Shown: positions 615 through 41,969 of the stretch, piece after piece
Position numbering within the stretch: position 1 is the first letter of the stretch
Layout of the letters: every line of letters begins with the position of its first letter
Assembly (NCBI RefSeq): GCF_017447225.1
Contig: NZ_JAFSNZ010000009.1
Location: 1-46,993, forward strand
Reading direction: 5' to 3'
DNA from: Methanobrevibacter sp.
GTDB lineage: Archaea > Methanobacteriota > Methanobacteria > Methanobacteriales > Methanobacteriaceae
Length of the DNA stretch: 46,993 nucleotides
Translations under genes and position numbers: made by a program
Notes under the pieces: generated by a model
What the model was told of the DNA's origin: nothing
The model's input: only the letters and a program-made list of their open reading frames with translations
The model's database searches: none

Positions 615-3600
615 GTGAAAAAACTTGGGGGTTTTTTTATTAAATACAAAACGATATTGTTTGTCTGTTTAATTGTATCTTTATTTGTAACTCTCTCTTG
701 CGCTTCTGCAAGTGATGTTAACAATTTAGATGATAATTTAACAGCAGTAACAGATGGAAATGATATCATCTCTGTTGATGATATGCAAAATAATGAAATT
801 ATGATGATATCGGATGATGATGTTATGGAAGCATCAGATTCTGATGACTTACTAACTGGAACCTATACGGACTTAAATAGACGTATAAGTAATTCTCCGG
901 ACGGTTCCACTATTTATTTGAATGATGACTACAGCATTTATAGTGCAATCTATTTTAGTTATAGGCATGATTTGATTATAGATGGTCAGGGACATACCAT
1001 TGATGCAAATGGCAATTCCAGAATATTCCATTTATATTCAACGTCATCAAATATCACATTTAAAAATATTAAATTTATAAACGGTTATGCAACTGAAGGT
1101 GGAGCAATTTATTCCACAATTCCTTTAAATGTTATTAACTGTACCTTTGAGGATAATGAAGCTACAGCATCAGGTAGGGGTGGTGGAGCGATTTATTTTG
1201 CTCAACAGGACAGTACAGTAATCAATATTACTGATTCCACTTTCAGAAGAAACACAGCTCTTCAGTATGGTGGTGCAATTGAATTCGACAATTCCAACCA
1301 GCCAGGATATATCGCTAACATTAAAAACTGTGTTTTTGAGGAAAACACTATAACAGGAATTAGTGCAATGGGTGGTGGAGCGATTTTGGTATATAGATAT
1401 GTTACAGTTAACATTGATTCAACCAAATTCATAAATAACTCTGCAAAAGATTCTGAAGGTGGAGCTATAAGATATTCAGGAACAGTCACTGTCAATAATT
1501 CAGAATTTTATTCCAATAATGCTATACATGGTGGAGCGTTATGTTTCGGTCAGATTTATGCTTTAAATGTTTATAATTCCAAATTTGTTGATAATTATGC
1601 TAAATTTCAGGGTGGTGCTGTTAAAGCTCGTGATTTTGACATGAATAATGTGACTTTTATCAACAACACTGCTGATGAAGCTGGTGGAGCATTATTTTCA
1701 AGATCAGGTGTTGCTGTTTTAGCTGATTCACAATTTATTAACAACACAGCTCCAACTGGTGCAGGATTATTTATTCATGGTGATGTAAGCAGTATAAGTG
1801 TTGTAGATACCAATTTCACTCATAACATAGCTTCTGCCAATGGTGGGGGATTATATTCAAACACTCCAAACATGATAGCTATTGCAGGCGCAAATTTCAT
1901 AAATAACCTCGCTAGCAATGGTGGTGGAGCATATATTGCTAAAGGAAGAACTTCCATTTCAGTTTCCAAATTTGAAGATAACACTGCTTCCGCTGAAGGT
2001 GGAGCAATATATATTGCAGCAGCCAATAATGAGGTTATCAACTCAAATTTCAAAAACAACACTGCTCAGATAGGTGGTGCTGTATATTGGAATGGGGACG
2101 CAGGTAAACTTCAAGGCTCAACATTCATTTCAAACAATGGTATAAACGGTTCTTCTGTTTACTGGAGATCCACAAACGGTAACTTAATCAATTCAAACTT
2201 TGATGACACTGATTCAACTGGAAAATCACTTCAATGGCATGGTACCAACGGTAGAATTTCCGAATCTCGATTCATCGGAAATGACACTATTTTCATTTGC
2301 CAGCATGCTTCAGTAAGTTTGGATTCAAACACACAGACCTCAACTTCCAGCGAAGGCTATTCAGTATTCAATGAGGGTATTGCAAGTTTCGCTTCAAACA
2401 CATTCAACAATCTAATTTATAATAACGGAACCATTACTTCAGATACATATATAATTACATTAAATAATGACACTCTCATTTCAGATATAAATTCTGCAGT
2501 AATATATACATCAGTTGAAGACGATAACGGTAACTACATTAAACTGAACAAAGACTTGGTCAATGTTTTCGAATCTCAAAGGTTAAGCACATCTTTCAAT
2601 AATACCCATTATGTTTCAACAGTTAACAATATTGCTATCGGTTATCATAATGTTTCAGCAGATGACTATGCTGGATTAGGTCTGTCCGATGTTAATGTGA
2701 TGCCTGGTGGTATATTATATTTAATAATTAACCTTACTGTAAACCAGACTAATTATGGTGAGAAAGTAGTATTCACAACTACTGTAGTAAACACTACATA
2801 TAACGGTACTGTTGATTTGGCAATTAATGACATTCATTATAATGTAACTCTTATAAACGGTACTGCTGTATTGACTTTGTATAATATGGCACCTAATACA
2901 TATGATGTTATCGCATCATATATGGATTATAATCAGACTGTCACTGCAGAGGTGGAAATCAAGGTTGAACTTCGTAATTCCACTTTAAGCATTATTGCTA
3001 ATAATGTATATTATGGCAATATCACAACTATTAATATAACTGTTACAAATGGTACTACTGGTACTGTATATGTATTCGTAAATAATAAGATGTATATCCT
3101 TACTTTAGCTAATAGTACTGCACAGCTTAATTTAACTGGTTTGTCAGGTAATAACTATACTGCTTATGCAATCTATAATGGTGATTCATACTTCTACAGC
3201 TCATACAATCAGACTAGTTTTACAGTATATAAACACACCCCACAAATAAATATTACAGTCAGTGATATCCATGTGGGTGAAATAGCTACAATTAAAGTTA
3301 ACTTGCCTAGTGATATCACAGGAACAGTATTTATTGATGTAGATGATGATGAATATAGATATGTTAACAAATCATCAATTACATTATATGTTAATAACTT
3401 AACCGCAGGCAATATCAGTGTAAGAGTACATTACTTAGGTGACAATAAGTATTATGAAGCCAATAACAGCGCTTCATTCAATGTGACTAAAAAGAATATG
3501 ACCATTATTGTACAAACTGCCCCTATCCCAGTTGGTGAAAATGAGACAATTTCTGTCATTTTACCTAGTGATGCAAAAGGCCTTGTACTTCTGGATGTAA

Positions 3601-6600
3601 ATGGAACCAAGTATTATGCATATGCAAACAACACTGTAGCTAAGTTTATAATCAGCGGACTTTCCAGAGGAGTATATAATGTAACTGCAGAATATGCAGA
3701 AGGTCCAATTTACAATACAGCCACAAATACATCTTCATTCTTTGTATACTACATTTACGCATTTGACTTTAATGTGTCTGCAACAACAGACAGTGATTTG
3801 AATGTATATGTCAGCATTTCCCTTCCAAGTGATGTTGATGGGGATGTGGTCGTTGAAATCAACGGATCCAACTACACTGCCCACATAAGTAAAGGTAAGG
3901 CTACCGTAATGATTCCAAATCTTAACGGCGGTGCATATAACGGTACGGTCTATCTTGAAAACGACACTAAATACGGACCTTCCAACAGAACATTCATAGT
4001 TGATTTGGAAAGGGTTTCTCCAACAGTTAACGTTATTTATAACTCCACTATCTATGTTGATGATGATGCAATAATTAAAGTAACTGTTGACAGCGATGCA
4101 ACAGGAAATATTACAATCACAATCAACAACACAGATTACACTGAAAAGATAAATAACGGTGAGGCATTATTCAATATCACCGGCCTGGTATGGCATGAAT
4201 ATGCATTCAATGTAACTTATACGGGCGACAGGAAATATCTGCCTGATGTAAAAGAGCATGTCCTGACTGTAAGCAGAATTCATAACTACTATTCAATGCT
4301 TGAAACCGAAAGCATTTATGTAGGTGAAAATGCAACAATTAAGGTTACATTTGAAGAGGATACAACCGGAAATGTCACACTGCTCATAAACGGATCAACT
4401 TACATAATTAATCTTAAAAATGGAACAGGTTCCATTAATATCTCAGGATTGCCTGTAGGAAAACACACTATTGACGCTACATACAGCGGAGACAGCAAAT
4501 ATGAACCATGTCACAGAGTATTTGAAGATTTCTATGTAAGAAAAATTGCAAATTATGATTTCACTCCTAACGGTCAGGCTAATGATACTCATGCAAATAT
4601 TACAGTAGAACTGCCTGCTGATGCTGATGGTTATGTAAATATTACCATTAATGGGCAAACTTATCCTAATATTGAAGTGAAAGACTGTAAAGCTAATTTA
4701 ACTGTCGGAGGATTGTCTGCAGGTGTACAATATCCTGTAAAAATCGATTACAGTGGTAATAATAATTATGAGCCTGCTTCTAAAAACATTACCTTAAGAA
4801 GTGATAAAACATTTGATTATGAATTCAATATCACTATTAATGATATACATGTTGGAGACATTGCTTATCTGGTAATTACCATACCTGAAGCAAATGACAC
4901 TGATTTGGTTAGAATCACTGTCGAAAACAGAACTCCTGTAATCGCATCCATAGTAAACGGTACTATCAATCATCCAATAATCGGATTGGAAGAAGGAGAT
5001 TATTCCATCATTGTCGAGTACTTAGGTAATAGCAAATTTGAAGCATCTACCAGATATGAGGATGTCCATGTATCCAAGATATCTTCCTATAAGTTTGATG
5101 TCGTTGCCAACGAACCTAAAGTAGGTGAAAACTTAACTGTAGATATACAATTGCCTACTGATTCATCAGGAAATGTAACTGTAACTGTAAGCATAAACAA
5201 TACAAACTATACCGCAAATGTTACAAACGGTACGGCCCGTGTTGTCATTCCGAATCTGCCTGAAGGAATCTACAATACTACTGTATTCTTCTCAGGAGAC
5301 AACAAATACCACAATGCAACCAAAGTAATTGAAGTGACTGTTGTCAAAATTGATTCTTATGCATTTGACGTAACTCCGGAAAATATCTATGTTGGAAGCG
5401 AAGAACACATTAAAATTACCTTACCTGAAGATATTACGGGAAATGTAACAATTACAATCGATAATACTGATTATATCAACAAATCTGTCACTGTAGTTAA
5501 CGGTACCGGATGGTTTAATGTAACAGGTTTGGCTAAAGGACAATATGTTTTCTCAGTTGCCTTTGATAATGATTCCAAATACGAATCAGACATCAAATAT
5601 GGAAACTTTGAAGTATTATCCATAAACGATTACTTATTCAATGTAACCGTCAGCGATCCGAATTACGTCAGGGACAACATTACATTTAAAGTGGAATTGC
5701 CAACCGATGCTACAGGTGAGGTTAATGTCCGTATTTTTGCGACAGACTTCAAAGGAGAAGTTAAAAACGGTGTTGCTGTTGTTAATATAACAGCTCCTTA
5801 TTATGGAAGTTTCCCATATCTCGTTTCATTCGAAGAACCTGGAAAATATGTGTTAAAAACACAATCCGGAACACTTACTATTTCAAAATTGGACGTTGAT
5901 GTAACTCCTGAATATAATAAAACCGTTCATGTTGGAGAAAAAGTCACATTTAAAGTGCAATTGCCTGAAGACGCTACCGGAACAATCACGATTGTCAGCC
6001 GTATTGTTTCATATACCGTACCTTTAGTAAACGGTTCTGCTAATGTTACCATTGACGGTTATCCTTTAGCACAATCATACTCACCTGCAATCTCATACAG
6101 TGGGGATGACAGATATAATCCGGCCAGCTTAACCTTAAACGTTACTGTAATTAAGGTAAGTGACTATGATTTCGACTTCAATGTATCCGATATCAATGTA
6201 GGACAGACTGAAATCGTAAATGTCACTCTTCCAAGCGATGCAACAGATGATGTTTTGATATATGGTAACTTCAGTTCAAACAGATACTCCCAAGCTATTA
6301 TAAACGGAAATGTTACATTCAACATCAGGAATTTGGCCGCAGGAACATACAATATCACGGTTTTATATCAGGGATATAATAAATACGAAAGCAAAAACAT
6401 AACTAAAACGTTCACTGTCAGCAAAGTCAATTCCACAATAGCTATTGACTTTATAGATAATAGTATAGTTGTTGTAAGTGTCCCTGGTGATGCTACCGGA
6501 AATGTGACCATAAGGGTAGGCAGTATCAATAGGAATGTAACTATTGCAAACGGCAAGGCCACATTGGATGTCACTGATCTTTATCCTGACACTTACACTG

Positions 6601-9600
6601 TTTATGCAAATTATGCCGGTGACGGAAAATACTTGGAAAACGCTACAGATAAACAGATTACCCTACCTCAAACGGGTAATTATTTGATAAATGCTACAGC
6701 TAATGATATTATTGTAGGTGAAAATGCAACAATTATTGTATATCTTCCAAGTGATGCAAAAGGATATGTGAATATTACTGTAAACAATAGTGAAATTAAA
6801 AGGGCGGAAATAACGAATGGTGTTGCAAGATTAACTGTTCCTGATTTGGCTGTCGGAAATTATAAAGTTGTAGTCAATTTCACTGATGACAAGTATCTGT
6901 TCAAAACAAATTCCACAACATTCAATGTTGCTCAAATCAGAACAGTATTATCCCCTTCAGTCATTGTTGAAAACAGAACACTCAATATAACTGTGGACAT
7001 CACTGAAAATGCAACAGGAAACATTACAATTTATGTGGATAATGTTCCTTATAGTCGTGAAATCAAAGACAACAAAGCTAATTTGGTTATTGATGTAATT
7101 CCGGGTGATATTTTCGTAAGAGCATCCTATGCCGGTGATGACAATCATACAAGCGCTAACTCTAATCTGGTTCTTGTTGAAGTTGAAAAGATTGATGATT
7201 ATGATATTTTAATCGATTTAAAAGATTTAATCACTGTAGTTGAAAATAACGTAATCACTTTCACATTGCCTGAAAATGTTACTTCAAATAATTTAATAGT
7301 ATTTGTTGAAGATGATGATTATATTGTTGAAATCAATTCAACAACCCATAAGGCAACATTAACTCTTCCATTACTTCCTGAAGGAGATTATGACATTGTT
7401 GTTCCTTATGAGGATGACTTATACGATTACAAAGAATTCACAGCTTCTTTCATTGTGATAAAACTTAACACAACTGTTGATGTGGAAGTTAAAAACATTA
7501 CTAAAGATATGTCTGAAGTCATTAACATTACATTAAATGACACTGCTTCAGGCGAAGTATTGATTGATTTGAATGGAACAGTTTACCATAAATATCTTGA
7601 AAATGGAAAAGCCAATTTAACTGTAAGTGATTTGACTGACGGAAACTACACAGTAATTGTAACCTATCTGGGTGATAATTACTTCAATGACAATTCCACA
7701 ACAGTATATTTCACTGTTTCAAAATTATCAACAGATCTGATAATCAATGCTTCCGATATTATTGTAGGTCATGATTTGAAAATTGAATTCACATTATCAT
7801 CAAATATCACTGATATAATAACCGTTAAAGTAGGAAATGAAAATTACACAACATTTGTATATAAAGGAAAAGGTAATCTCACTGTCCGTGATTTGCCTGT
7901 CGGTGAATATAACATCACTGCATCCTATGCCGGTGACAATAATTATTATGCAGTTACAAACACTACAAATATCACTGTAAACGGTAAAAAATCTTCCAAA
8001 ATTAATGTAAGTGTTGCAGATATTACTGTTGGTGAGGATATTATGGTTTATGTGAATGCTACTGAAGGTATTTATGGTCCTGTTTATGTGACTATCGGTG
8101 GTTTGGCTTACACTCATGATCTTGTTGACGGTAAGGTTAATTTCACTGTTTCCAATTTAACTGCACGTAATTATCAAGTCTCAGCATTCTTCATGGGTAA
8201 TGATGAGTTTGAATTGTGCAATACCACTTCAACCTTTGTTGTCCATAAAAAAGACACTCCAATCAGTTTAAATGTAACTAACATTAAAATCGGTGAAGAT
8301 GAGATAATTAACGTAACTGTTGCCGGTGAAGCTACCGGTGATGTCTTAATTGATATTGATGACTTACATATTTATGCTGAAATTATCAATGGCAGTGCTG
8401 TTGCTGTTATCAGTGATTTTGCTGTTGGCAAATATAATGTAACTGTTAACTATCTAGGTGATGATAAGTATAATGCTAATTCAACCAGTTCATCATTCAC
8501 AGTTTCTCAGCTTGAAACTACAATTTCCATTAGCGGTTCTGATATTATAGTCGGTCAGAGAGAAGTCTTTGACATTGTGATGTCTGCTAATATTACTGAG
8601 GTTGTTATTGTTGAGATTGGTGGTGTTAATTATACTACTTTTGTTGAGAAGGGTGTTGGTAAGTTCAGTATTTCTAATCTGACTGCTGATGTTTATGATG
8701 TTGTTGTTTACTTCCCTGGAAACACCAAATACGGTGCAGTAAACAACACTACTTCTATTAAAGTCAGTGATAAATTGCCTTCTGCAATCACGATTAATGT
8801 TTCAGATATATTTGTTGGTGATGAGTTAACTGTTTATGTTAATGTCACTCCTGGCGCTACTGGCCGTGTAACTGTCGTTGTTGCAGGTGACACTTTCACT
8901 AAGGAATTATCCGGTGATTCAGCTAATTTCACAATTTCCGGTTTAATTGCCCGTGATTATCATGTGACTGCATACTATCGCGGTGATGATGTCTACCTAA
9001 TCAGCAATTCAACAGCTAACTTCACGGTTAACAAGAAAGATACTTTAATTAATGCGTCTGCTAAAGACATTATTGTAGGTGAGGCAACTGAAATCTCTGT
9101 AAACCTTACTGATGGTGCTACAGGCATTGTTCTTGTTGATATCAACGGAACCAAATATTATGCAAACATTACTGATTCAAAAGTCATATTGAATGTTCCT
9201 AACTTGGCTGTAGGATCTTATGATGTGGTTGTTTCATATCTTGGTGATGACCGCTTCCATTCAAATGAAACTGAGACAAGCTTCAAAGTCTCCAAAGTGA
9301 CTTCTGAGATTAGCATTTCCCTGCCTGACGGAGAAATCTATGCTTACGGAGATAATGTCGTCATTCATGTAACAGGTCCGGAAGACGTAACAGGCGTTGC
9401 AACCTTAAATGTTGTAACTAAATACGGTCATGACGAATACACGGTTTATATCAATAATGGGGAAGCTAGTTTAACTATTATAAAACCTGATGTGGACGAT
9501 TATAATGTTTCAGCAGTTTATCTGGAAAACTACAAATATTACTCTTCAAATTCATCCAAACTACCATTTGAAGTATATATGAACGGTTCTGAAATCAATG

Positions 9601-12600
9601 TAAATGGCCATGACATCAGTGTAGGCGAAACCGAAACAATCGTTGTCACTTTCCCTATAGGAGAATATTCAGGAAATGTAACTTTCTATGTCGATGAAAG
9701 AGAATTCACAAGAGAAATATCATATGACTCTGCAACAAACATCAGTACTGCTACTTTAACATTGGATGACCTTGTTTCAGGAACTTATACTGTCAGAGCA
9801 GTATTCGTAAATGTTGAAGATGGAAAAACTGTAGTTCATGAAGGAAGTGATGTATTCACAGTATCCAAAATCAAATCTGCAATTGTTATCGATTCAATTT
9901 CAGACATTAAAGTTGGTGAAAATGCTACAATCAGATTGCTCATAACTCCTTCAGATGTTACAGGAACAGTTGATGTCTATGTAAACAGCAAACATTATAG
10001 CGTAAACGTAACAAATCCTATATTAACAGTCTCAGACTTGAAAGAAGGTGAAGCTTCAGTTTATGCTGTATATCCTGGAGACAGCAAATACTTGTCATCA
10101 AATGACACAGCATCATTCAATGTTTACAAAAATGATGTGGTGCCGGAATTAAGCGTATCAGATATTGATATCAGTCAGATGATTAACATTACTGTTAAAT
10201 TGCCTGGCGATGCAACCGGCTATGTATTACTTGACATTAACGGAACCCAGTTCTATGCTGATGTAGAAAACGGAACTGCAAAATATCTAATTGTTCCAGC
10301 AAATACTGGTGAATTTGTTGTAACCGCAACATATCTCGGTGACGACAAATATTATTCAAATTCAACTACATGTTCTTTTGTGTGCTCTAAAATTAAAACA
10401 GACATCATAATATCAGGTGAAAATATTGTCGTCGGCCATGATGAGGTACTGACAATTACCACCGCTAACTTTACAGAAGTAATCACTGTTGAAATTGAAG
10501 GCATCAATTACACAACATTTGTAGAAAATGGAATTGGTAATTTAACTATTTCAAACTTGCCTATCGGTAATTATAATGCTACAGTCTACTTCCCTGGAAA
10601 CACTAAGTATAATGCAGTAAGCAACCGTACCTCATTTGAAGTCACTGACAAAAAATCTTCCGCACTTTCAATCGATGTCAAAGACATTATTGTCGGACAG
10701 GATGCAGTTATAACTGTTAATGTCACTGATGGGGCAACTGGTGAGGTAACAATCGTAATCAGAGGAAGAGAATACACAGAAAAATTAGAAAACGGATCCG
10801 CTACATTCACTATTTCCAACTTAACAGCTAGAGACTATGAAGTCACTGCAATCTACAGCGGCGATGAAAGTTACCTGCCAAGCAATAATACTGCAGGATT
10901 TGCTGTTGAAAAAATAGCTGTTGAAATTAAAGTGGATGCAAAAGACATACTGGTCAATGAAACAGAAACAATTGAAATCAGATTATCTGAAGATATTGAC
11001 GGAATTGTTTTAGTAAATGTCAATTCAACAGGTTACTATGTAAATGTCACAGAAGGATATGGAGTATTGAAACTTGATAACTTAAAATCAGGCGATTATA
11101 ATGTGACTGCAACATTCCTCGGTGATGATGTCTATAAATCAGCATCCAATGCAACTTCATTTGCAGTAAGCATCAAATCCGTTCCGGAAATAAATGTGGA
11201 TGTAAATGATGATAATGTTACTGTAGTCCTGCCTGAGGATGCAACAGGCAATGTAACTGTATTGATTGATGGTAAAGAAGTTCCTGGAGAAGTTATCAAC
11301 AATACTGTCGTTGTAGATACCAGTAATTTAGCTCCTGGAAACCATACTGTCGAAGTCATCTATCCTGGTGATGATAAATATGCTCCATATGACAATACAA
11401 CAACCGTTGAAGTGCCTAAAGTTGATGATTACAAATTTGATGTTGATATTAAAGTTGATGGAAATGATGCAGTCGTTTCAGTTGAACTGCCTGAAGACGT
11501 TAACGGCGTAGTATTTGTTGATGTTGACGGTACCGGTTACTATGTAAACGTCACAAACGGTAAAGGATCAGCTGAACTGACCAATTTCGACATAGGCAAA
11601 CACAACATTACAGTCAGATATGATGGTGATGACAAATATGGTGAAAGTGAGAAATCTTCCTCATTTGTTGTCGATGATAAGCATATCACTCCAATTGACA
11701 TCATAACTCATGATATTCATGTTGGAGATAATTTAACTGTTTATGTAATAGTACCAAGTGATGCCACTGGAGAAATCACTATCCAAATTGATTCAGCAAA
11801 TTACACTGCTCCAATTAACAGAGGCGTATCCAGATTCAATATTTCCGGATTGGCTGAAGGCAATTACACAGTAAATGCAATCTATAACGGCAGCGTAAAA
11901 TATGACTCAAACACTACATCAGCTCCAGTAAAAGTTTCAAAAGTTGATGATTACCCAATTGACATTATTGAAAACGGTAAAAATATCACTATCAACCTTC
12001 CTAGTGATGCAACCGGTAATGTTACTGTGATTGTTGACGGAGAAAACTTTACCGGTAAGGTTGTAAACGGAACAGTTACTATTTATGACCCTAACTTGAC
12101 TGCAGGCCCTCACAATATTACTGTAATCTACAGCGGTGATGATAAGTACTCACCAGAGAAGAATGATACTGAAGTTGACATTAAAAATAGGGTTTTAATC
12201 GATGCTCCTTATGTAATCAAGTATTATTCTGGTCCTGAAAGATTATATGTATATCTTGAGGATTTAAACGGAAATAAAATAGCTAACGCTTCTGTTTCAA
12301 TCAAAATCAATGGTGTTACATATAATAGAACCACTGATGAGAACGGTACTGCGTCACTTGCCATTAACTTAGGCGGAGGAAACTATTCAGCAATCGTTAC
12401 ATTCAATGGAAATGAAGAGTTCAACAGTACTTCAATAACCTCATTCGTATCTGTTTTACCTACAATCTATGGAAACGATATTGTTAAAGTTTATAGAAAC
12501 GGAACTCAATATTATGCATTATTCCTGGATAGTCAGGGTAATCCGTTAGTAAATGAAAATGTGTCCTTTAATATCAACGGCGTATTCTATACTAGAACAA

Positions 12601-13220
12601 CTAACGAAAGCGGTTGGGCTAAATTGAATATCAACCTGCAAAAAGGCACATACATTTTAACTGCATTCAACCCTGTAACTGGCGAAAAACATTCCAATTT
12701 AATAACTGTGCTTACTCAGATTGTTGAGAATAATAACCTGATTAAGTATTATCACAATGACAGTCAGTTTGTAGCCAGAATCATTACTGAAGATGGATCT
12801 TATGCTAAAGCGGGTGAACAGGTAACATTCAACATTCATGGTATGATTTATAACCGTTATACTGACAATGATGGATATGTCAGATTAAATATTAATTTGG
12901 GTCCTGGCGATTACATCATAACCACATACTATAAAGAATGTGCCGAAGGTAATCACATCCATATCTTAGAGGATTTCATAACAAATGATTTGGTAATGAG
13001 TTATAAAGACGGTTCTCAATTCATTGCTCATGTGCTGGATGGAAAAGGTAATGCGTATGAAGGTCAGACTGTTACTTTCAATATTAATGGAATGTCTTAT
13101 GATAGGACAACAGATATCAATGGTGATGCCAGACTGAATATCAATCTGCAATCAGGTCAATATCTGATTACATCAACATATCTGAACGAAGTTCATACAA
13201 ACACAATTGTGATAAATTAG
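615..13220 (+). CDS. Giant adhesin-like surface protein (4201 aa)
   Basis: This is a secreted protein of roughly 450 kDa. The start is a GTG; no better in-frame start is visible and the signal peptide follows at once (hydrophobic core at residues 12-28, cleavage probable after ASA near residue 32). Residues ~95-610 form a right-handed parallel beta-helix with repeated GGAIY/GGALF turns and FxNNTA rungs, as in pectate-lyase-like and Pmp-type passenger proteins. From ~700 to ~3855 I count about 36 Ig-like domains of ~85-90 residues, each opening with a VGE(N/D)xTI strand and closing with YxGDxKYxxxxxxxSFxV. The last ~350 residues are four different ~85-residue domains (INGVxYxRTTDxxGxAxLNINLxxGxY), related to Big_1-type folds. 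Asn-X-Ser/Thr sequons are very frequent, so heavy N-glycosylation is likely. I see no LPXTG motif, pseudomurein-binding repeat or C-terminal membrane helix; the C-terminal domains may do the anchoring. Binding target unknown. Confidence 0.92.
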   Translation: MKKLGGFFIKYKTILFVCLIVSLFVTLSCASASDVNNLDDNLTAVTDGNDIISVDDMQNNEIMMISDDDVMEASDSDDLLTGTYTDLNRRISNSPDGSTIYLNDDYSIYSAIYFSYRHDLIIDGQGHTIDANGNSRIFHLYSTSSNITFKNIKFINGYATEGGAIYSTIPLNVINCTFEDNEATASGRGGGAIYFAQQDSTVINITDSTFRRNTALQYGGAIEFDNSNQPGYIANIKNCVFEENTITGISAMGGGAILVYRYVTVNIDSTKFINNSAKDSEGGAIRYSGTVTVNNSEFYSNNAIHGGALCFGQIYALNVYNSKFVDNYAKFQGGAVKARDFDMNNVTFINNTADEAGGALFSRSGVAVLADSQFINNTAPTGAGLFIHGDVSSISVVDTNFTHNIASANGGGLYSNTPNMIAIAGANFINNLASNGGGAYIAKGRTSISVSKFEDNTASAEGGAIYIAAANNEVINSNFKNNTAQIGGAVYWNGDAGKLQGSTFISNNGINGSSVYWRSTNGNLINSNFDDTDSTGKSLQWHGTNGRISESRFIGNDTIFICQHASVSLDSNTQTSTSSEGYSVFNEGIASFASNTFNNLIYNNGTITSDTYIITLNNDTLISDINSAVIYTSVEDDNGNYIKLNKDLVNVFESQRLSTSFNNTHYVSTVNNIAIGYHNVSADDYAGLGLSDVNVMPGGILYLIINLTVNQTNYGEKVVFTTTVVNTTYNGTVDLAINDIHYNVTLINGTAVLTLYNMAPNTYDVIASYMDYNQTVTAEVEIKVELRNSTLSIIANNVYYGNITTINITVTNGTTGTVYVFVNNKMYILTLANSTAQLNLTGLSGNNYTAYAIYNGDSYFYSSYNQTSFTVYKHTPQINITVSDIHVGEIATIKVNLPSDITGTVFIDVDDDEYRYVNKSSITLYVNNLTAGNISVRVHYLGDNKYYEANNSASFNVTKKNMTIIVQTAPIPVGENETISVILPSDAKGLVLLDVNGTKYYAYANNTVAKFIISGLSRGVYNVTAEYAEGPIYNTATNTSSFFVYYIYAFDFNVSATTDSDLNVYVSISLPSDVDGDVVVEINGSNYTAHISKGKATVMIPNLNGGAYNGTVYLENDTKYGPSNRTFIVDLERVSPTVNVIYNSTIYVDDDAIIKVTVDSDATGNITITINNTDYTEKINNGEALFNITGLVWHEYAFNVTYTGDRKYLPDVKEHVLTVSRIHNYYSMLETESIYVGENATIKVTFEEDTTGNVTLLINGSTYIINLKNGTGSINISGLPVGKHTIDATYSGDSKYEPCHRVFEDFYVRKIANYDFTPNGQANDTHANITVELPADADGYVNITINGQTYPNIEVKDCKANLTVGGLSAGVQYPVKIDYSGNNNYEPASKNITLRSDKTFDYEFNITINDIHVGDIAYLVITIPEANDTDLVRITVENRTPVIASIVNGTINHPIIGLEEGDYSIIVEYLGNSKFEASTRYEDVHVSKISSYKFDVVANEPKVGENLTVDIQLPTDSSGNVTVTVSINNTNYTANVTNGTARVVIPNLPEGIYNTTVFFSGDNKYHNATKVIEVTVVKIDSYAFDVTPENIYVGSEEHIKITLPEDITGNVTITIDNTDYINKSVTVVNGTGWFNVTGLAKGQYVFSVAFDNDSKYESDIKYGNFEVLSINDYLFNVTVSDPNYVRDNITFKVELPTDATGEVNVRIFATDFKGEVKNGVAVVNITAPYYGSFPYLVSFEEPGKYVLKTQSGTLTISKLDVDVTPEYNKTVHVGEKVTFKVQLPEDATGTITIVSRIVSYTVPLVNGSANVTIDGYPLAQSYSPAISYSGDDRYNPASLTLNVTVIKVSDYDFDFNVSDINVGQTEIVNVTLPSDATDDVLIYGNFSSNRYSQAIINGNVTFNIRNLAAGTYNITVLYQGYNKYESKNITKTFTVSKVNSTIAIDFIDNSIVVVSVPGDATGNVTIRVGSINRNVTIANGKATLDVTDLYPDTYTVYANYAGDGKYLENATDKQITLPQTGNYLINATANDIIVGENATIIVYLPSDAKGYVNITVNNSEIKRAEITNGVARLTVPDLAVGNYKVVVNFTDDKYLFKTNSTTFNVAQIRTVLSPSVIVENRTLNITVDITENATGNITIYVDNVPYSREIKDNKANLVIDVIPGDIFVRASYAGDDNHTSANSNLVLVEVEKIDDYDILIDLKDLITVVENNVITFTLPENVTSNNLIVFVEDDDYIVEINSTTHKATLTLPLLPEGDYDIVVPYEDDLYDYKEFTASFIVIKLNTTVDVEVKNITKDMSEVINITLNDTASGEVLIDLNGTVYHKYLENGKANLTVSDLTDGNYTVIVTYLGDNYFNDNSTTVYFTVSKLSTDLIINASDIIVGHDLKIEFTLSSNITDIITVKVGNENYTTFVYKGKGNLTVRDLPVGEYNITASYAGDNNYYAVTNTTNITVNGKKSSKINVSVADITVGEDIMVYVNATEGIYGPVYVTIGGLAYTHDLVDGKVNFTVSNLTARNYQVSAFFMGNDEFELCNTTSTFVVHKKDTPISLNVTNIKIGEDEIINVTVAGEATGDVLIDIDDLHIYAEIINGSAVAVISDFAVGKYNVTVNYLGDDKYNANSTSSSFTVSQLETTISISGSDIIVGQREVFDIVMSANITEVVIVEIGGVNYTTFVEKGVGKFSISNLTADVYDVVVYFPGNTKYGAVNNTTSIKVSDKLPSAITINVSDIFVGDELTVYVNVTPGATGRVTVVVAGDTFTKELSGDSANFTISGLIARDYHVTAYYRGDDVYLISNSTANFTVNKKDTLINASAKDIIVGEATEISVNLTDGATGIVLVDINGTKYYANITDSKVILNVPNLAVGSYDVVVSYLGDDRFHSNETETSFKVSKVTSEISISLPDGEIYAYGDNVVIHVTGPEDVTGVATLNVVTKYGHDEYTVYINNGEASLTIIKPDVDDYNVSAVYLENYKYYSSNSSKLPFEVYMNGSEINVNGHDISVGETETIVVTFPIGEYSGNVTFYVDEREFTREISYDSATNISTATLTLDDLVSGTYTVRAVFVNVEDGKTVVHEGSDVFTVSKIKSAIVIDSISDIKVGENATIRLLITPSDVTGTVDVYVNSKHYSVNVTNPILTVSDLKEGEASVYAVYPGDSKYLSSNDTASFNVYKNDVVPELSVSDIDISQMINITVKLPGDATGYVLLDINGTQFYADVENGTAKYLIVPANTGEFVVTATYLGDDKYYSNSTTCSFVCSKIKTDIIISGENIVVGHDEVLTITTANFTEVITVEIEGINYTTFVENGIGNLTISNLPIGNYNATVYFPGNTKYNAVSNRTSFEVTDKKSSALSIDVKDIIVGQDAVITVNVTDGATGEVTIVIRGREYTEKLENGSATFTISNLTARDYEVTAIYSGDESYLPSNNTAGFAVEKIAVEIKVDAKDILVNETETIEIRLSEDIDGIVLVNVNSTGYYVNVTEGYGVLKLDNLKSGDYNVTATFLGDDVYKSASNATSFAVSIKSVPEINVDVNDDNVTVVLPEDATGNVTVLIDGKEVPGEVINNTVVVDTSNLAPGNHTVEVIYPGDDKYAPYDNTTTVEVPKVDDYKFDVDIKVDGNDAVVSVELPEDVNGVVFVDVDGTGYYVNVTNGKGSAELTNFDIGKHNITVRYDGDDKYGESEKSSSFVVDDKHITPIDIITHDIHVGDNLTVYVIVPSDATGEITIQIDSANYTAPINRGVSRFNISGLAEGNYTVNAIYNGSVKYDSNTTSAPVKVSKVDDYPIDIIENGKNITINLPSDATGNVTVIVDGENFTGKVVNGTVTIYDPNLTAGPHNITVIYSGDDKYSPEKNDTEVDIKNRVLIDAPYVIKYYSGPERLYVYLEDLNGNKIANASVSIKINGVTYNRTTDENGTASLAINLGGGNYSAIVTFNGNEEFNSTSITSFVSVLPTIYGNDIVKVYRNGTQYYALFLDSQGNPLVNENVSFNINGVFYTRTTNESGWAKLNINLQKGTYILTAFNPVTGEKHSNLITVLTQIVENNNLIKYYHNDSQFVARIITEDGSYAKAGEQVTFNIHGMIYNRYTDNDGYVRLNINLGPGDYIITTYYKECAEGNHIHILEDFITNDLVMSYKDGSQFIAHVLDGKGNAYEGQTVTFNINGMSYDRTTDINGDARLNINLQSGQYLITSTYLNEVHTNTIVIN
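7735..9300 (+). repeat. Adhesin super-repeat, copies 1 and 2 (A-B-C-A-B-C)
   Basis: Three consecutive Ig-like domains of distinct subtype recur as a unit of ~260 residues. Type A contains NYTTFV(Y/E)KG and starts near 7735 and 8514. Type B is introduced by KKSSK or KLPSA and contains the LTARxY/LIARDY turn (near 7984 and 8772). Type C is introduced by KKDT and contains VLIDI or VLVDING (near 8251 and 9031). A type-C domain also precedes copy 1 (7450-7734). Such phasing suggests growth of the gene by duplication of three-domain blocks. Confidence 0.75.
10387..11170 (+). repeat. Adhesin super-repeat, copy 3 (A-B-C)
   Basis: This third copy of the three-domain unit is separated from copy 2 by four other Ig-like domains. 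Type A (NYTTFVENG) begins near 10387, type B (KKSSALSIDV, then NLTARDY) near 10650 and type C near 10912. As in copy 1, a type-C domain precedes it (10135-10386). Codon choice differs clearly from copy 2 although the protein is alike. Confidence 0.7.
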
Positions 13221-15302: not shown

Positions 15303-15878
15303 TTAATATGGTGTGTATAGTACTGCTAATATTTTAGATTCTTTTTCACCGGTTGCATGTAAATGGTGAGGAACAACGGAATCATAAAATATGCTGTCTC
15401 CTTCGCCTATGGTGAATGTGTCTTTTCCATAGATTACTTCAATTTCTCCTTCTAATACATAAATGAATTCTTCTCCTTCGTGTGAGGATAATTCCTTTTC
15501 TCCAGGTTCATAAGCGATGTCGATTATGAACGGGTCAATATTCCTGTCGATTTTACCTGATCCTAAAGAATGGAACTCAAGGTTACTTGCGTTTGTAACA
15601 TCTTCTCTTCCTGAGAAGTATAATGAGTTTGTCGGTTTTCCGGCTCTTGTGACTACAGGTCCAATCTGTGGGGTGTCATCCAGGAATGTTCCAAGTCTGA
15701 CTCCTAAAGCTCTTGCCATTTTTGTTAATGGTGTTAATGACGGGATAACTTCTCCATCTTCCATAGCTTTTAGAACGTCTAATTTAACGCCACTGTTTTC
15801 GGCGAGCTCTTCTATAGTCATATTCTGTCTTTCTCTAATGCTTTTTATTTTAGAAGCAAATTCTTTATTTTTTTCCAT
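15303..15878 (-). CDS. XRE-family regulator with cupin sensor domain
   Basis: Residues ~8-65 form an XRE-type helix-turn-helix (IRERQNMTIEELAENSGV, then ALGVRLGTFL). Residues ~115-188 form a small beta-barrel cupin (HEGEEFIYVLEGEIEV, then GDSIFYDSVVPHHLHA), with His and Glu positions that could hold a metal or line a ligand pocket. Such proteins usually control the neighbouring metabolic gene in response to a small molecule. This one is first in a minus-strand operon with the 52-residue ORF and the acyl-CoA synthetase, so the ligand may be the acid or acyl-CoA of that enzyme (inference). A near-perfect palindrome sits 27 bases ahead of the gene, at the expected transcription start, which suggests autorepression. 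GTGAT lies 5 bases before the ATG. Confidence 0.88.
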   Translation of the reverse strand: MEKNKEFASKIKSIRERQNMTIEELAENSGVKLDVLKAMEDGEVIPSLTPLTKMARALGVRLGTFLDDTPQIGPVVTRAGKPTNSLYFSGREDVTNASNLEFHSLGSGKIDRNIDPFIIDIAYEPGEKELSSHEGEEFIYVLEGEIEVIYGKDTFTIGEGDSIFYDSVVPHHLHATGEKESKILAVLYTPY

Positions 15879-15923: not shown

Positions 15924-16074
15924 AATATAATTTTGTACTTTCTATTTATATAATACTTTGTAAAATCAGTTATTTTTCAGTAGTTTTAGGGGTTTTTATA
16001 AAATTTTAATTGTACATTTATGGACATTGATTAAAAAATAATGTTTTTTGATGGTTAATGATTGGTGAAAGTTA

Positions 16075-16614
16075 TCATCTGTCAATTACATTCATAAATC
16101 TGTCTTTTATCTCTTCCGGTGTTAAATCGATAATTGGTGCTTCAGAATTTCCAGGTTTGCAGTTAAACACTATAAAATTGCAGCTGTCATTTCTTATTTT
16201 TTTCTTTAATTCGATATCAAAGAAATTATGGCTTTTAATACCTACGCTTTTTGCAATGCTTACCAGGTCCAGACCTTTTGCATATGTTTCCTGATTTCCT
16301 GTTGAGCCGTATGCGCCGTTGTTGATTACAATCCATGTCAGATTTCTTGGACTGCATGCATTGACCGTAACGAGTGAACCCATATTCATAAGAAGTGCTC
16401 CGTCACCGTCAATTACAACAACGTCCTTTTCAGGCTGTGACAGTGCCAGACCCAGACCTATTGATGAGGCAAGTCCCATTGATCCGATCATATAGAAGTT
16501 TTCAGCCCTGTCCTGGATATCATAGAGTTCCCTTGAAGGAAATCCTATATTGCAGATTACCAGTTCGTCATCGATTGATTCCATTATTTTAAAAATAGCG
16601 TCTCTTCTCTGCAT
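16075..16614 (-). CDS. comE: Sulfopyruvate decarboxylase, beta subunit
   Basis: With ComD, this subunit makes the thiamine-diphosphate enzyme that decarboxylates 3-sulfopyruvate to sulfoacetaldehyde in coenzyme M synthesis. The 179 residues contain the TPP/Mg binding motif starting at GDGALLMNMGSL (~residue 70) and ending in WIVINN (~94-99). The preceding GSMGLASSIGLGLAL is typical of the family's C-terminal half. Its ATG lies 4 bases after the comD stop, and the ribosome binding site GGTGAT overlaps that stop, so the two subunits are probably translated in a coupled way. The gene could instead be a phosphonopyruvate decarboxylase-like protein, but the split two-gene form in a methanogen points to ComDE. 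Confidence 0.88.
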   Translation of the reverse strand: MQRRDAIFKIMESIDDELVICNIGFPSRELYDIQDRAENFYMIGSMGLASSIGLGLALSQPEKDVVVIDGDGALLMNMGSLVTVNACSPRNLTWIVINNGAYGSTGNQETYAKGLDLVSIAKSVGIKSHNFFDIELKKKIRNDSCNFIVFNCKPGNSEAPIIDLTPEEIKDRFMNVIDR

Positions 16615-16618
16615 GTTA

Positions 16619-17110
16619 TCACCAGTATTTAATTTCCAATAGTATTGATACAGGTTTTCCTTCCTGTTCGGACAGTTCCCAAGAGTTTCTTATGTCTTCA
16701 TATGCCGCTTCAGGATTTCCCGGTTTGAAAAAATTAAAATTCATTGCTTCCAGTATCAAAGGCGTGGACTGTCCCATCGGGACCTGTCCGCAGATGTTTT
16801 CCCCTTCAGTTCCTCTGTGGCTCATTACCATCAGTAAAGGAAATCCGTACAGTTCAGTTAGAGATTTCAATGCATTGATTGAGTTTCCAAGCCCTGAGTT
16901 CTGCATCAGTATTGCAGTTTTCCTGCCGCCAAGATAAGCTCCGGCACATAATCCTATTCCTTCTTCCTCCCTTGTCACAGGAATATGGATTATATCTTTG
17001 TCTTCATCAATCATATTTAATAATTTAGATAAGTTGACGCATGGAACGCTTACGATAAAGTCAATTCCGGCATCTTTCAGACCATTGTAAATAGCTTCTG
17101 TACTATCCAT
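16619..17110 (-). CDS. comD: Sulfopyruvate decarboxylase, alpha subunit
   Basis: This is the N-terminal (PYR-type) half of the ThDP enzyme encoded with comE. At 163 residues it has the family length. It opens with [20 protein letters not shown] and contains [18 protein letters not shown] (residues ~45-62), where the Glu pair includes the conserved residue that activates the thiamine ring, then [14 protein letters not shown]. comD is first in the operon. Its promoter region is shared with the divergent cofH and contains two TGTACA boxes placed between a minus-strand TATA box and the probable start site, so repression of comDE from there is plausible. Part of the coenzyme M pathway. Confidence 0.88.
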
Positions 17111-17143: not shown

Positions 17144-17159
17144 TGTACAATGTTGTACA
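17144..17159. promoter_or_regulatory. Paired TGTACA boxes, TrpY-like operator candidate
   Basis: TGTACAATGTTGTACA holds two identical TGTACA boxes whose centres are 10 bp apart, also readable as the inverted repeat TGTACAA-TG-TTGTACA. On the minus strand TTTATAAAA (17165-17173) would be the comD TATA box, putting the boxes between TATA and start site. TGTACA is the core of the TRP box bound by the repressor TrpY in Methanothermobacter. A matching site stands before aroA' at 39962. Confidence 0.5.
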
Positions 17160-17191
17160 CTTTATTTTATAAATTAATGTATAATAGTAAC

Positions 17192-17199
17192 ATATATAT
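17192..17199 (+). promoter_or_regulatory. TATA box of cofH, leaderless start
   Basis: ATATATAT is centred about 28 bases before the cofH ATG at 17224 and no Shine-Dalgarno sequence precedes that ATG. Transcription should therefore start at or next to the start codon. Confidence 0.5.
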
Positions 17200-17223
17200 T
17201 AAATTATTTACTTATTTATATTT

Positions 17224-18342
17224 ATGTTTGATAAACTACCAATTTCTTCTAAAACAGAAAAAATCTTAACCAAATCTCTGGATGAGGCAATTTCTGTTGA
17301 AGAAGCAAATTACTTGATGAATATTAAAGGTTCTGATTTTTATCCGTTGATTGCTACAGCGGATTATTTAAGGCATGAAATTGTTGGCGACAATGTTACA
17401 TTCATTAACAACTGCAATATCAACTTCACGAATATCTGTACAGTTAAATGTGGCTTTTGCGCTTTCGGAAAGGATGAGGATGACCCTGATGCTTATATAT
17501 TAAATGATGAGCAGATTCTTGCAAAGGCTGAGGGGGCTGTTGAAAGGGGTGCCCATGAATTCTGTCTGATGGGAGGAGTCCATCCTGAAGCGGACATTGA
17601 ATACTATGAGCATTTGCTGCAGCTGCTTAAGGGGGAATATCCTAATGTTTTGATTCACGGTTTTTCACCTACCATGATCAGCGATGCGGCTTTAGCATCA
17701 GGAATTGATATTGCCGAAGCCTGCGAAAGACTAAAATCCGCAGGTTTGGATACTTTACCCGGAACTGCTGCTGAAATACTGACTGACCGTTCAAGGGAAC
17801 TGATCTGTCCTGAAAAGGTCAGCGTTGACGAATGGATTGATATAGTGAGGACTGCACACGAAGTCGGAATTCCGGGTTCAGCCACAATCATGTACGGTCA
17901 TGTCGAGACATTGGAGGAACGTGTTGAACACATTGATGTTATTCGCCGCCTGCAGGAAGAGACCCACAGTTTCACGGAATTCATTCCAATGACGTTCATG
18001 CACGAGTATTCACCTATATTTCTTGAAGGCCAGTCAAATCTCGGTGCAACGGGAACTGAAGACTTGAAGCTATATGCCGTTGCCAGACTGATGTTGAGGG
18101 ATTTGATTCCAAACATTCAGGTTTCCTGGGTAAAGATGGGTTTCAGATTCGCTCAGGTTTCACTTACCGCAGGTGCTAACGATTTGGGCGGTACTTTAGG
18201 TGGAGATGAACTTTCTGAGGCTTCAGGTGCTCCAGATGGTGTTGATGCATCCATCGATACCTTGGGAAGGATTGTAAGAAATCTTGGCAGAAATCCTATC
18301 GAGAGAAATTCCAAATACACTGAATTTTATCCGATTGACTAA
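17224..18342 (+). CDS. cofH: FO synthase subunit 2, CofH (radical SAM)
   Basis: CofH joins a tyrosine-derived 4-hydroxybenzyl radical to 5-amino-6-(D-ribitylamino)uracil; with CofG this gives FO, the deazaflavin core of coenzyme F420. The radical SAM cluster motif is Cys72-x3-Cys76-x2-Cys79, inside NINFTNICTVKCGFCAFG. Next comes MGGVHPEADIEYYEHLL, typical of the CofH/MqnC/MqnE group, then HGFSPTM and LPGTAAEIL. The 372-residue length and the GG-HP-YY pattern favour CofH over CofG and over the menaquinone enzymes. The gene is divergent from comDE and seems to be leaderless. Because it consumes tyrosine, control by an aromatic-amino-acid regulator would make metabolic sense. No cofG is present in this window. 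Confidence 0.88.
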   Translation: MFDKLPISSKTEKILTKSLDEAISVEEANYLMNIKGSDFYPLIATADYLRHEIVGDNVTFINNCNINFTNICTVKCGFCAFGKDEDDPDAYILNDEQILAKAEGAVERGAHEFCLMGGVHPEADIEYYEHLLQLLKGEYPNVLIHGFSPTMISDAALASGIDIAEACERLKSAGLDTLPGTAAEILTDRSRELICPEKVSVDEWIDIVRTAHEVGIPGSATIMYGHVETLEERVEHIDVIRRLQEETHSFTEFIPMTFMHEYSPIFLEGQSNLGATGTEDLKLYAVARLMLRDLIPNIQVSWVKMGFRFAQVSLTAGANDLGGTLGGDELSEASGAPDGVDASIDTLGRIVRNLGRNPIERNSKYTEFYPID

Positions 18343-39961: not shown

Positions 39962-39977
39962 AGTACATTATTGTACA
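39962..39977 (+). promoter_or_regulatory. Paired TGTACA-like boxes before aroA'
   Basis: AGTACATTATTGTACA contains AGTACA and TGTACA with centres 10 bp apart, the same geometry as the pair at 17144 (shared core GTACA-N4-TGTAC). It ends 7 bases before the TATA box, where a repressor would compete with TFB. A TrpY-type regulator of aromatic synthesis is a natural candidate. Confidence 0.5.
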
Positions 39978-40037: not shown

Positions 40038-40829
40038 ATGATTGGTAAAAAAATTCGTTTAGAAAGAATTTTCAATAGGAATACTGGAAGAACAGTAATT
40101 GCTCCAATGGATCATGGTGTTTCCAGCGGACCTATTAAAGGAATCGTAAATATAGATGATACAGTAGAAGAAATCTCCCAAGGAGGAGCAGATGCAATAT
40201 TAATGCATAAAGGAATCGTAAAAAGAGGTCACAGAGGATACGGTAAAGACATAGGTCTTATTGTACACTTATCCGCAAGTACTTCCCTTGCACCTGACCC
40301 AAACGACAAAGTAACAGTAACCTCTGTTGAAAAGGCAATACAGTTAGGTGCAGATGCAGTTTCCGTTCATGTAAACCTAGGAAGCGCAACTGAAAGCAAC
40401 ATGCTGCAGGAATTAGGTGAAATCGCTGAAACCTGTGATTACTGGGGAATTCCACTTCTTGCAATGATGTACCCTCGCGGTGAAAAAGTTGAAAATGAAA
40501 TGGATGTTGAATTTGTAAAACACGCTGCCCGTGTAGGTTCAGAATTAGGTGTCGACATTGTAAAAACCAACTATACCGGAGATCCTGACTCATTTAAGGA
40601 AGTAGTGGAAGGAGCTCTTGTGCCTGTAGTTATCGCAGGAGGACCAAAAGTGGACACCGATGAGGAACTATTGACTATGGTGAAAGATTCATTAAGCGTT
40701 GGCGGAGCAGGTGTAGCATTCGGACGTAATCTTTTCCAAGCTAAAAATCCTGGAAAAATTACAAGAGCAATTTCAGAAGTTGTACATAATGATTTAGAAG
40801 TTGAAGAAGCTTTAAAATTCTTAGATTAA
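40038..40829 (+). CDS. aroA': ADTH synthase (2-amino-3,7-dideoxy-D-threo-hept-6-ulosonate synthase)
   Basis: This class I aldolase-fold enzyme makes the first dedicated intermediate of the archaeal aromatic pathway from a 6-deoxy-5-ketofructose phosphate and aspartate semialdehyde. Lys176 in [10 protein letters not shown] should form the Schiff base, assisted by Asp25 ([10 protein letters not shown]) and Tyr145 (MMYPRGE). GGPKVDT (~197-203) and VAFGRNLFQ bind phosphate. The 263-residue length is typical; the fold is shared with archaeal fructose-bisphosphate aldolase, but the adjacent dehydroquinate synthase II gene decides the call. First gene of a four-gene operon, with a TrpY-like box ahead of its TATA. 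Confidence 0.92.
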
Positions 40830-40838
40830 GGTGATTTA

Positions 40839-41969
40839 ATGCAAAATAAATTCGCTTGGATAATGACTCCAGACCTCCCATGGGACGACAGAAAGGAAAT
40901 GATAACAACCGCTTTAGAATCAGGCATCAGCTATGTGCTTGATTTGGAGTATAGCGAAAAGATTCGCAAATTGGGTAATGTCAATATCGTTTCAAACGAA
41001 GAGGATGCAGACATCTATCTTGTGGGAATCGATGGTGAAGGCGACGGGTCAATTGATTTGAGTGAAAATTTATCAGACTCTACCGATTTGGCCAATGCAA
41101 AAAAGGCCAAAAGTGAAGGTAAAACAGTTTGTGCATACATTAAAATCACTGATAAGTTACATGAACAGCTTGCAGTAAAACTAGGACCAATCGTTGATTA
41201 TATTATTCTTATAGGAACCGACTGGACTGTAATTCCACTTGAAAACATTATAGCAGACCTTCAGAAAGTTGATGTTGAAATCATCGCTGCCGTAAATGAT
41301 GCAGAAGGCGCAAAACTTGCTTTGGAAACCTTGGAGCATGGAACTGACGGTGTGATATTTGAAGCAAATGACTTTGCCCAAATCAAGGATATCGCATCAG
41401 AAGCCGACAATGCATCCAAAGTCAAATATGATTTGAAAATTGCAACCATAACCAATGTAAAACCTTTAGGCTCAGGTGACAGGGTATGCGTCGATACAAC
41501 AGACATGATGCAGCCTGGAGAAGGAATGCTTATAGGTTCATATTCAAAATCATTATTCCTGGTTCACTCAGAATCATTGGAAAGTGAATATGTGGCTTCA
41601 AGACCATTCAGGGTAAATGCAGGTCCGGTTCAGGCATATGTCATGGTTCCGGGAAACAAAACCAGATATTTGGCTGAGCTTGTAGCCGGAGATGAAGTGC
41701 TTATTGTCAACACCAAAGGTGAAACCAGAACAGCTTATGTCGGAAGAAGCAAAATCGAAAGAAGACCATTGATTTTAATCGAAGCCGAATATGAAGGAAA
41801 AACAATAAGAACATTACTACAAAATGCGGAAACAATAAGAATTGTTGATGCTGACGACAACCCATTATCTGTAGCTGATGTAAAAGCTGGAGATAAGGTA
41901 AAAGTCTATATTGAAAAAAGCGCAAGACATTTCGGTATAGCTATTGACGAAACAATAATTGAACAATGA
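40839..41969 (+). CDS. aroB': 3-dehydroquinate synthase II
   Basis: This enzyme turns the ADTH synthase product into 3-dehydroquinate by oxidative deamination and cyclisation with NAD, bypassing DAHP in archaea. The start [24 protein letters not shown], the middle [13 protein letters not shown] and [25 protein letters not shown] are diagnostic of this family. Length 376 is normal. GGTGAT lies 5 bases before the ATG, 9 bases after aroA'. With its neighbour it commits carbon to Phe, Tyr and Trp; tyrosine then also feeds CofH. Confidence 0.93.

Follow-up and report, generated by a model that had tools for sequence, protein, structure and literature searches.

A candidate TrpY-type TRP box between comDE and cofH in Methanobrevibacter and its possible role in coupling cofactor synthesis to aromatic amino acid supply

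In the window, i.e., the entire stretch of 46,993 nucleotides of Methanobrevibacter sp. DNA analysed here, the genes comD (16619..17110, minus strand; TIGR03845, 223.6 bits versus a cut-off of 148) and comE (16075..16614, minus strand; TIGR03846, 237.3 bits versus 221.5), coding for the alpha and beta subunits of sulfopyruvate decarboxylase, respectively, diverge from cofH (17224..18342, plus strand; TIGR03551, 450 bits versus 374), which codes for the L-tyrosine-using FO synthase subunit. All gene names at this locus were assigned by NCBIfam equivalogs scoring above their cut-offs. The window is contig C105 of a 2.16-Mb genome, and its gene content and order resemble Methanobrevibacter. The 113-bp gap between comD and cofH contains the sequence TGTACAATGTTGTACA at positions 17144-17159. 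Here the initial annotation had reported two exact TGTACA boxes one helical turn apart, and exact copies are indeed found at 17144-17149 and 17154-17159 with their centres 10 bp apart; the pair is better read as a single 16-bp palindrome, TGTACA-N4-TGTACA, which is probably one dimer site. Its spacer is ATGT, unlike the usual spacer consisting only of A and T. As read by eye, the likely TATA box of comD is TTTATAAAATA (17163..17173, minus strand) and that of cofH is ATATATATTAAA (17192..17203, plus strand). Given the former, the palindrome would cover about positions -16 to -1 of comD, and it lies, again as read by eye from the window sequence, about 26 bp upstream of the BRE of the latter.

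A one-mismatch TRP-box-like sequence, TGTACATTTATGGACA, is also located upstream of the gene for an XRE-cupin regulator (15303-15878), at positions 16011-16026 of the window, and is found only in a weaker form, TGCACATTTTGATACA, in the related genome G009. A 4201-aa reading frame with repeated adhesin-like domains and an N-terminal region resembling a right-handed beta-helix occupies positions 615-13220.

TrpY is an HTH-plus-ACT regulator that responds to tryptophan in Methanothermobacter, and we take the consensus of its operator, the TRP box, to be TGTACA. In the Methanothermobacter-like relatives it is found as a 167-aa protein divergent from trpE. The genome under study codes for one full-length orthologue (G000:C111:9102-9602), as the search for trpY homologues proposed in the initial annotation revealed; it is 49% identical over 167/167 residues without gaps, scores 202 bits against the NCBIfam family TrpY_fam (NF053754, cut-off 180), and retains the VDRR residues of the putative DNA-binding part. 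A single-copy, full-length TrpY is present in 37/37 genomes of the genus, namely the one under study and the 36 congeners searched; TrpY orthologue and box thus occur together in the genome under study. In Methanothermobacter thermautotrophicus, where TRP boxes are known from trpY-trpEGCFBAD and trpB2 and where the regulator is orthologous to the one described here, TrpY represses trp via TRP boxes (PMC6737238), and trpB2 is a published TrpY target (Karr et al. 2008, cited in PMC3729527). The trpY-trpE region of Methanothermobacter carries TGTACATTATTATACA, which has the same architecture as the boxes of the genus, and both its TGTACA half-sites and its TGTA-N8-TACA spacing are the same as at 17144-17159, where both arms are exact.

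The same arrangement recurs at the tryptophan genes of Methanobrevibacter. In nearly all trpE promoters of the genus, TGTACA-N4-rkTACA or a near form of it stands just before the BRE and an TTTAAATA TATA box, and in nearly all of 30 trpB2 promoters TGTACATTTTTGTACA or a spacer variant lies directly upstream of BRE and TATA box, so that the published target trpB2 bears a box here as well; the spacing at 17144-17159 is that of these known or orthologous TrpY targets. The trpY leader contains a conserved TGTACAAAAAGTTGGA. Within the same window as the cofH palindrome, a second TRP-box-like palindrome with one mismatch, AGTACATTATTGTACA (39962..39977), is located directly upstream of the BRE and TATA box of aroA' and 61 bp upstream of aroA'-aroB'. 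The two genes code for the enzymes that catalyse the first two steps of the aromatic pathway of archaea, 2-amino-3,7-dideoxy-D-threo-hept-6-ulosonate synthase (aroA', 40038..40829, plus strand; TIGR01949, 398.6 bits versus a cut-off of 299) and 3-dehydroquinate synthase II (aroB', 40839..41969, plus strand; NF002626, 605 bits versus 485).

A position weight matrix (PWM) was trained on trpE and trpB2 promoters only, and held-out promoters were scored against dinucleotide shuffles; since the genomes of the genus are related, the resulting promoter counts are non-independent trials. At p <= 0.01 a box was recovered in 19/35 aroA' promoters and in 7/37 cofH promoters (9/37 at p <= 0.05); a box was also recovered in 12/30 regions preceding a phenylacetate-CoA-ligase-like gene, and 21/24 promoters of a sodium:solute symporter gene, scored from its own start, reached a score of at least 10. 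The proposed TRP box at 17144-17159 itself, an exact TGTAC-N6-GTACA, scores 16.4 with p = 0.003, the lowest value attainable with 300 shuffles. Among 171 other promoters in the loci fetched, 25 scored at least 10, all of which share their box region with trpB2 (20), with a site on contig C66 (2) or with a regulator gene on contig C87 (3); once such box-sharing promoters were removed, none of the remaining 146 reached this score.

The number of motifs, in turn, is uninformative. The window has 10 copies of the single hexamer TGTACA, which is no enrichment over the 13.0 expected, and the genome scan for GTACA-N4-TGTAC suggested in the initial annotation gave 6 matches versus 3 for the reversed control, which is no clear enrichment, with 35 versus 75 for the one-mismatch motif. 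Because the loose motif is about as frequent as its reversed control, or less so, the genome-wide count was dropped as support, and the evidence lies in location and conservation. It is by location that the scan was informative: the window contains a single TGTACA-N4-TGTACA, none of 100 dinucleotide shuffles has one, and the genome has two exact copies, whereas exact TGTAC-N6-GTACA is limited to three copies in the 2.16 Mb, all of them in promoters, namely upstream of trpB2 (C90:1625), between the symporter and the ligase-like gene near indolepyruvate oxidoreductase-like genes (C5:3836), and between comDE and cofH, the latter two being the copies of TGTACA-N4-TGTACA. The genome was examined by motif search and in targeted stretches. 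A site on contig C1 falls within the coding sequence of uppP and was regarded as a chance match; other TGTACA pairs, which differ in spacing, are found upstream of a 2-isopropylmalate-synthase-like gene and in or at adhesin-like genes.

With respect to the distribution of the cofH box, 11 of the 37 genomes retain it in the promoter region, four of them in a weak form, and they do so at two fixed positions. It is found at -80/-79 in the window's clade, i.e., in G000 (the genome under study), G009 and G014, and at -69/-68 in G024, G003, G031, G036, G029, G025, G018 and G001, the last four being weak; the site of the window's clade is thus 11 bp, or one helical turn, further upstream. In the -69/-68 group the box reads TGTACATTTTCATACA or close variants; the cofH BRE follows about 15 bp downstream, and the likely comD TATA box, as read by eye, is roughly 80 bp away. 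Box and likely comD initiation region overlap in the window's clade, where the box is kept at the same position despite a changed spacer, intact in G009 (TGTACAAATTTGTACA) and with one mismatch in G014 (AGTACAAATCTGTACA). G007, G017 and G026 have apparent decayed copies at -69, and in the neighbouring genomes G020, G032 and G013, where the intergenic region is shorter, the box is lost or was never present. About two thirds of the 37 genomes lack a cofH box, and no such box is present at the cofH and aroA' starts checked in Methanothermobacter and its sister group. Conservation in related species, a point raised in the initial annotation, is partial, extending to 11/37 genomes and not to the rest of the genus or to Methanothermobacter, and the proposed link between TrpY and cofH is thus confined to part of the genus. 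A tree of 30 genomes built from three proteins has the box labels scattered, with 9 label changes and no clustering, and a single origin of the box thus finds no support in the tree. This scatter indicates that losses are common and that the box is under weak or lineage-specific selection. Its fixed position and common sequence would fit an old site that was lost many times, which the tree cannot show.

Taken together, the location of the box, its conservation in part of the genus, the architecture shared with the trp promoters and the presence of a TrpY orthologue make it very probable that 17144-17159 is a TRP box of the TrpY type. The initial interpretation is thus partly supported: the orthologue, the same palindrome at trpE, trpB2, aroA'B' and trpY-trpE and the recurrence of the cofH box speak for it, while the absence of the latter from some two thirds of the genus and from cofH of Methanothermobacter, the unusual spacer in the window and the lack of enrichment in the raw genome-wide counts speak against it. 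We put at roughly three in four the probability that a TrpY dimer binds here and places cofH, and in the window's clade also comDE, under an aromatic signal. According to this proposal, which is based on comparative sequence data, TrpY would recognise TGTA-N8-TACA, best in the form TGTACA-N4-TGTACA, and would control trpE, trpB2, aroA'-aroB', the sodium symporter and its own gene via the same palindrome, so that cofH would come under the signal common to the trp and aro genes, the effector being tryptophan or another aromatic. At cofH, the position upstream of the BRE would be compatible with activation or moderate repression. At comD, the box would span the region from just after the TATA box to the likely start, and bound TrpY would be expected to hinder transcription of comDE by steric block.

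The comDE part of the link is weaker than the cofH part and is drawn from the geometry in three genomes. A narrower version of the same explanation, which does not exclude it, is that the TRP box serves cofH only and that comDE is a bystander, the overlap having resulted from intergenic shortening in the window's clade. The eight -69/-68 genomes, with their box close to the cofH BRE and distant from the comD TATA box, are in line with this alternative, to which we give somewhat less than an even chance; however, in G000, G009 and G014 the likely initiation region of comD is directly covered by the box, a classical position for a repressor.

It is improbable that the palindrome is instead bound by a member of a genus-expanded family of 90-aa winged-helix (ArsR-like) regulators, of which several relatives encode a copy next to comDE. 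This family has 2-13 paralogues in nearly every genome of the genus, several of them next to comE, and one paralogue, on contig C87, has TGTACA palindromes upstream that are kept in the closest relatives. However, no copy was detected in Methanothermobacter, yet the same palindrome is present there at trpY-trpE; in addition, the motif is missing from 32/35 paralogue promoters at p <= 0.01, the presence of a paralogue beside comDE does not track the box, and it is trp and aro genes that carry the boxes. A chance palindrome without function in A+T-rich intergenic DNA is likewise unlikely, for although the loose motif counts exceed the reversed control little or not at all and two members of the same clade, G020 and G032, have lost the box, the exact 16-mer is expected 0.00 times in shuffled windows, the box is kept in place in G009 and, with its mismatch, in G014, and a second recurrent cofH box exists at -69 elsewhere in the genus.

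In comparison with known systems, the candidate TRP boxes here are also found at aroA'B', the sodium symporter and cofH/comDE, whereas Methanothermobacter has none at the aroA' and cofH starts checked. Tar (TK0271) of Thermococcus kodakarensis (PMC6737238) is similar in that the trp, tyr-phe and aro operons are all controlled by one regulator, whose palindrome lies upstream of BRE and TATA box, but it is a protein other than TrpY and an activator, F420 or coenzyme M genes are not reported, and its operator, TGGACA-N8-TGTCCA, differs from 17144-17159 in arms and spacing. MsvR boxes (PMC3729527) share with the site at 17144-17159 a methanogen regulator, divergent promoters and an N4-spaced inverted repeat, but their sequence, TTCGTA-N4-TACGAA, differs and their regulon is a redox regulon.

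Several further boxes deserve mention. The TRP box of the PutP-like sodium:solute symporter, whose function is unassigned (G000:C5:3836-3851 and relatives), lies 70-120 bp upstream of the start in 21/24 genomes, even where the symporter is not adjacent to the ligase gene, and predicts a transporter of aromatic amino acids or aryl acids in the TrpY regulon. The trpB2 box is common to a divergent conserved gene of about 343 aa (MRILAIDVGTGTQDIMIYD...), which is for this reason also a candidate TrpY target. At G000:C66:19979-19994, AGTACAAAATTGTACA is flanked by genes for an NCS1-type permease and for a pyridoxamine kinase; TrpB uses PLP as its cofactor. Finally, two TRP-box-like palindromes (G000:C87:11179-11249), of which TGAACA-N4-TGTACA is conserved in the closest relatives, precede the gene for a 91-aa winged-helix regulator, which is oriented divergently from mtxX (methanogenesis marker 4).

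CofH consumes tyrosine in making the F420 chromophore, and a coupling of F420 synthesis to aromatic supply therefore makes biological sense. While the kind of operator is already known, its proposed cofH/comDE target is new: in a literature search, which left subscription papers mostly outside its reach, neither TrpY nor a TRP box was found reported for any cof or com gene. The link between TrpY and F420 is plausible, supported at the DNA level and lineage-restricted; that TrpY ties both F420 synthesis, via CofH, and coenzyme M synthesis to aromatic supply in part of the genus, through a link repeatedly gained or lost, is close to an even bet but falls just short of it. As far as the literature could be searched, little is described about how methanogens control the synthesis of F420 and coenzyme M, and a TrpY site at cofH/comDE would, if true, constitute a specific link from amino acid supply to the cofactors of methanogenesis.
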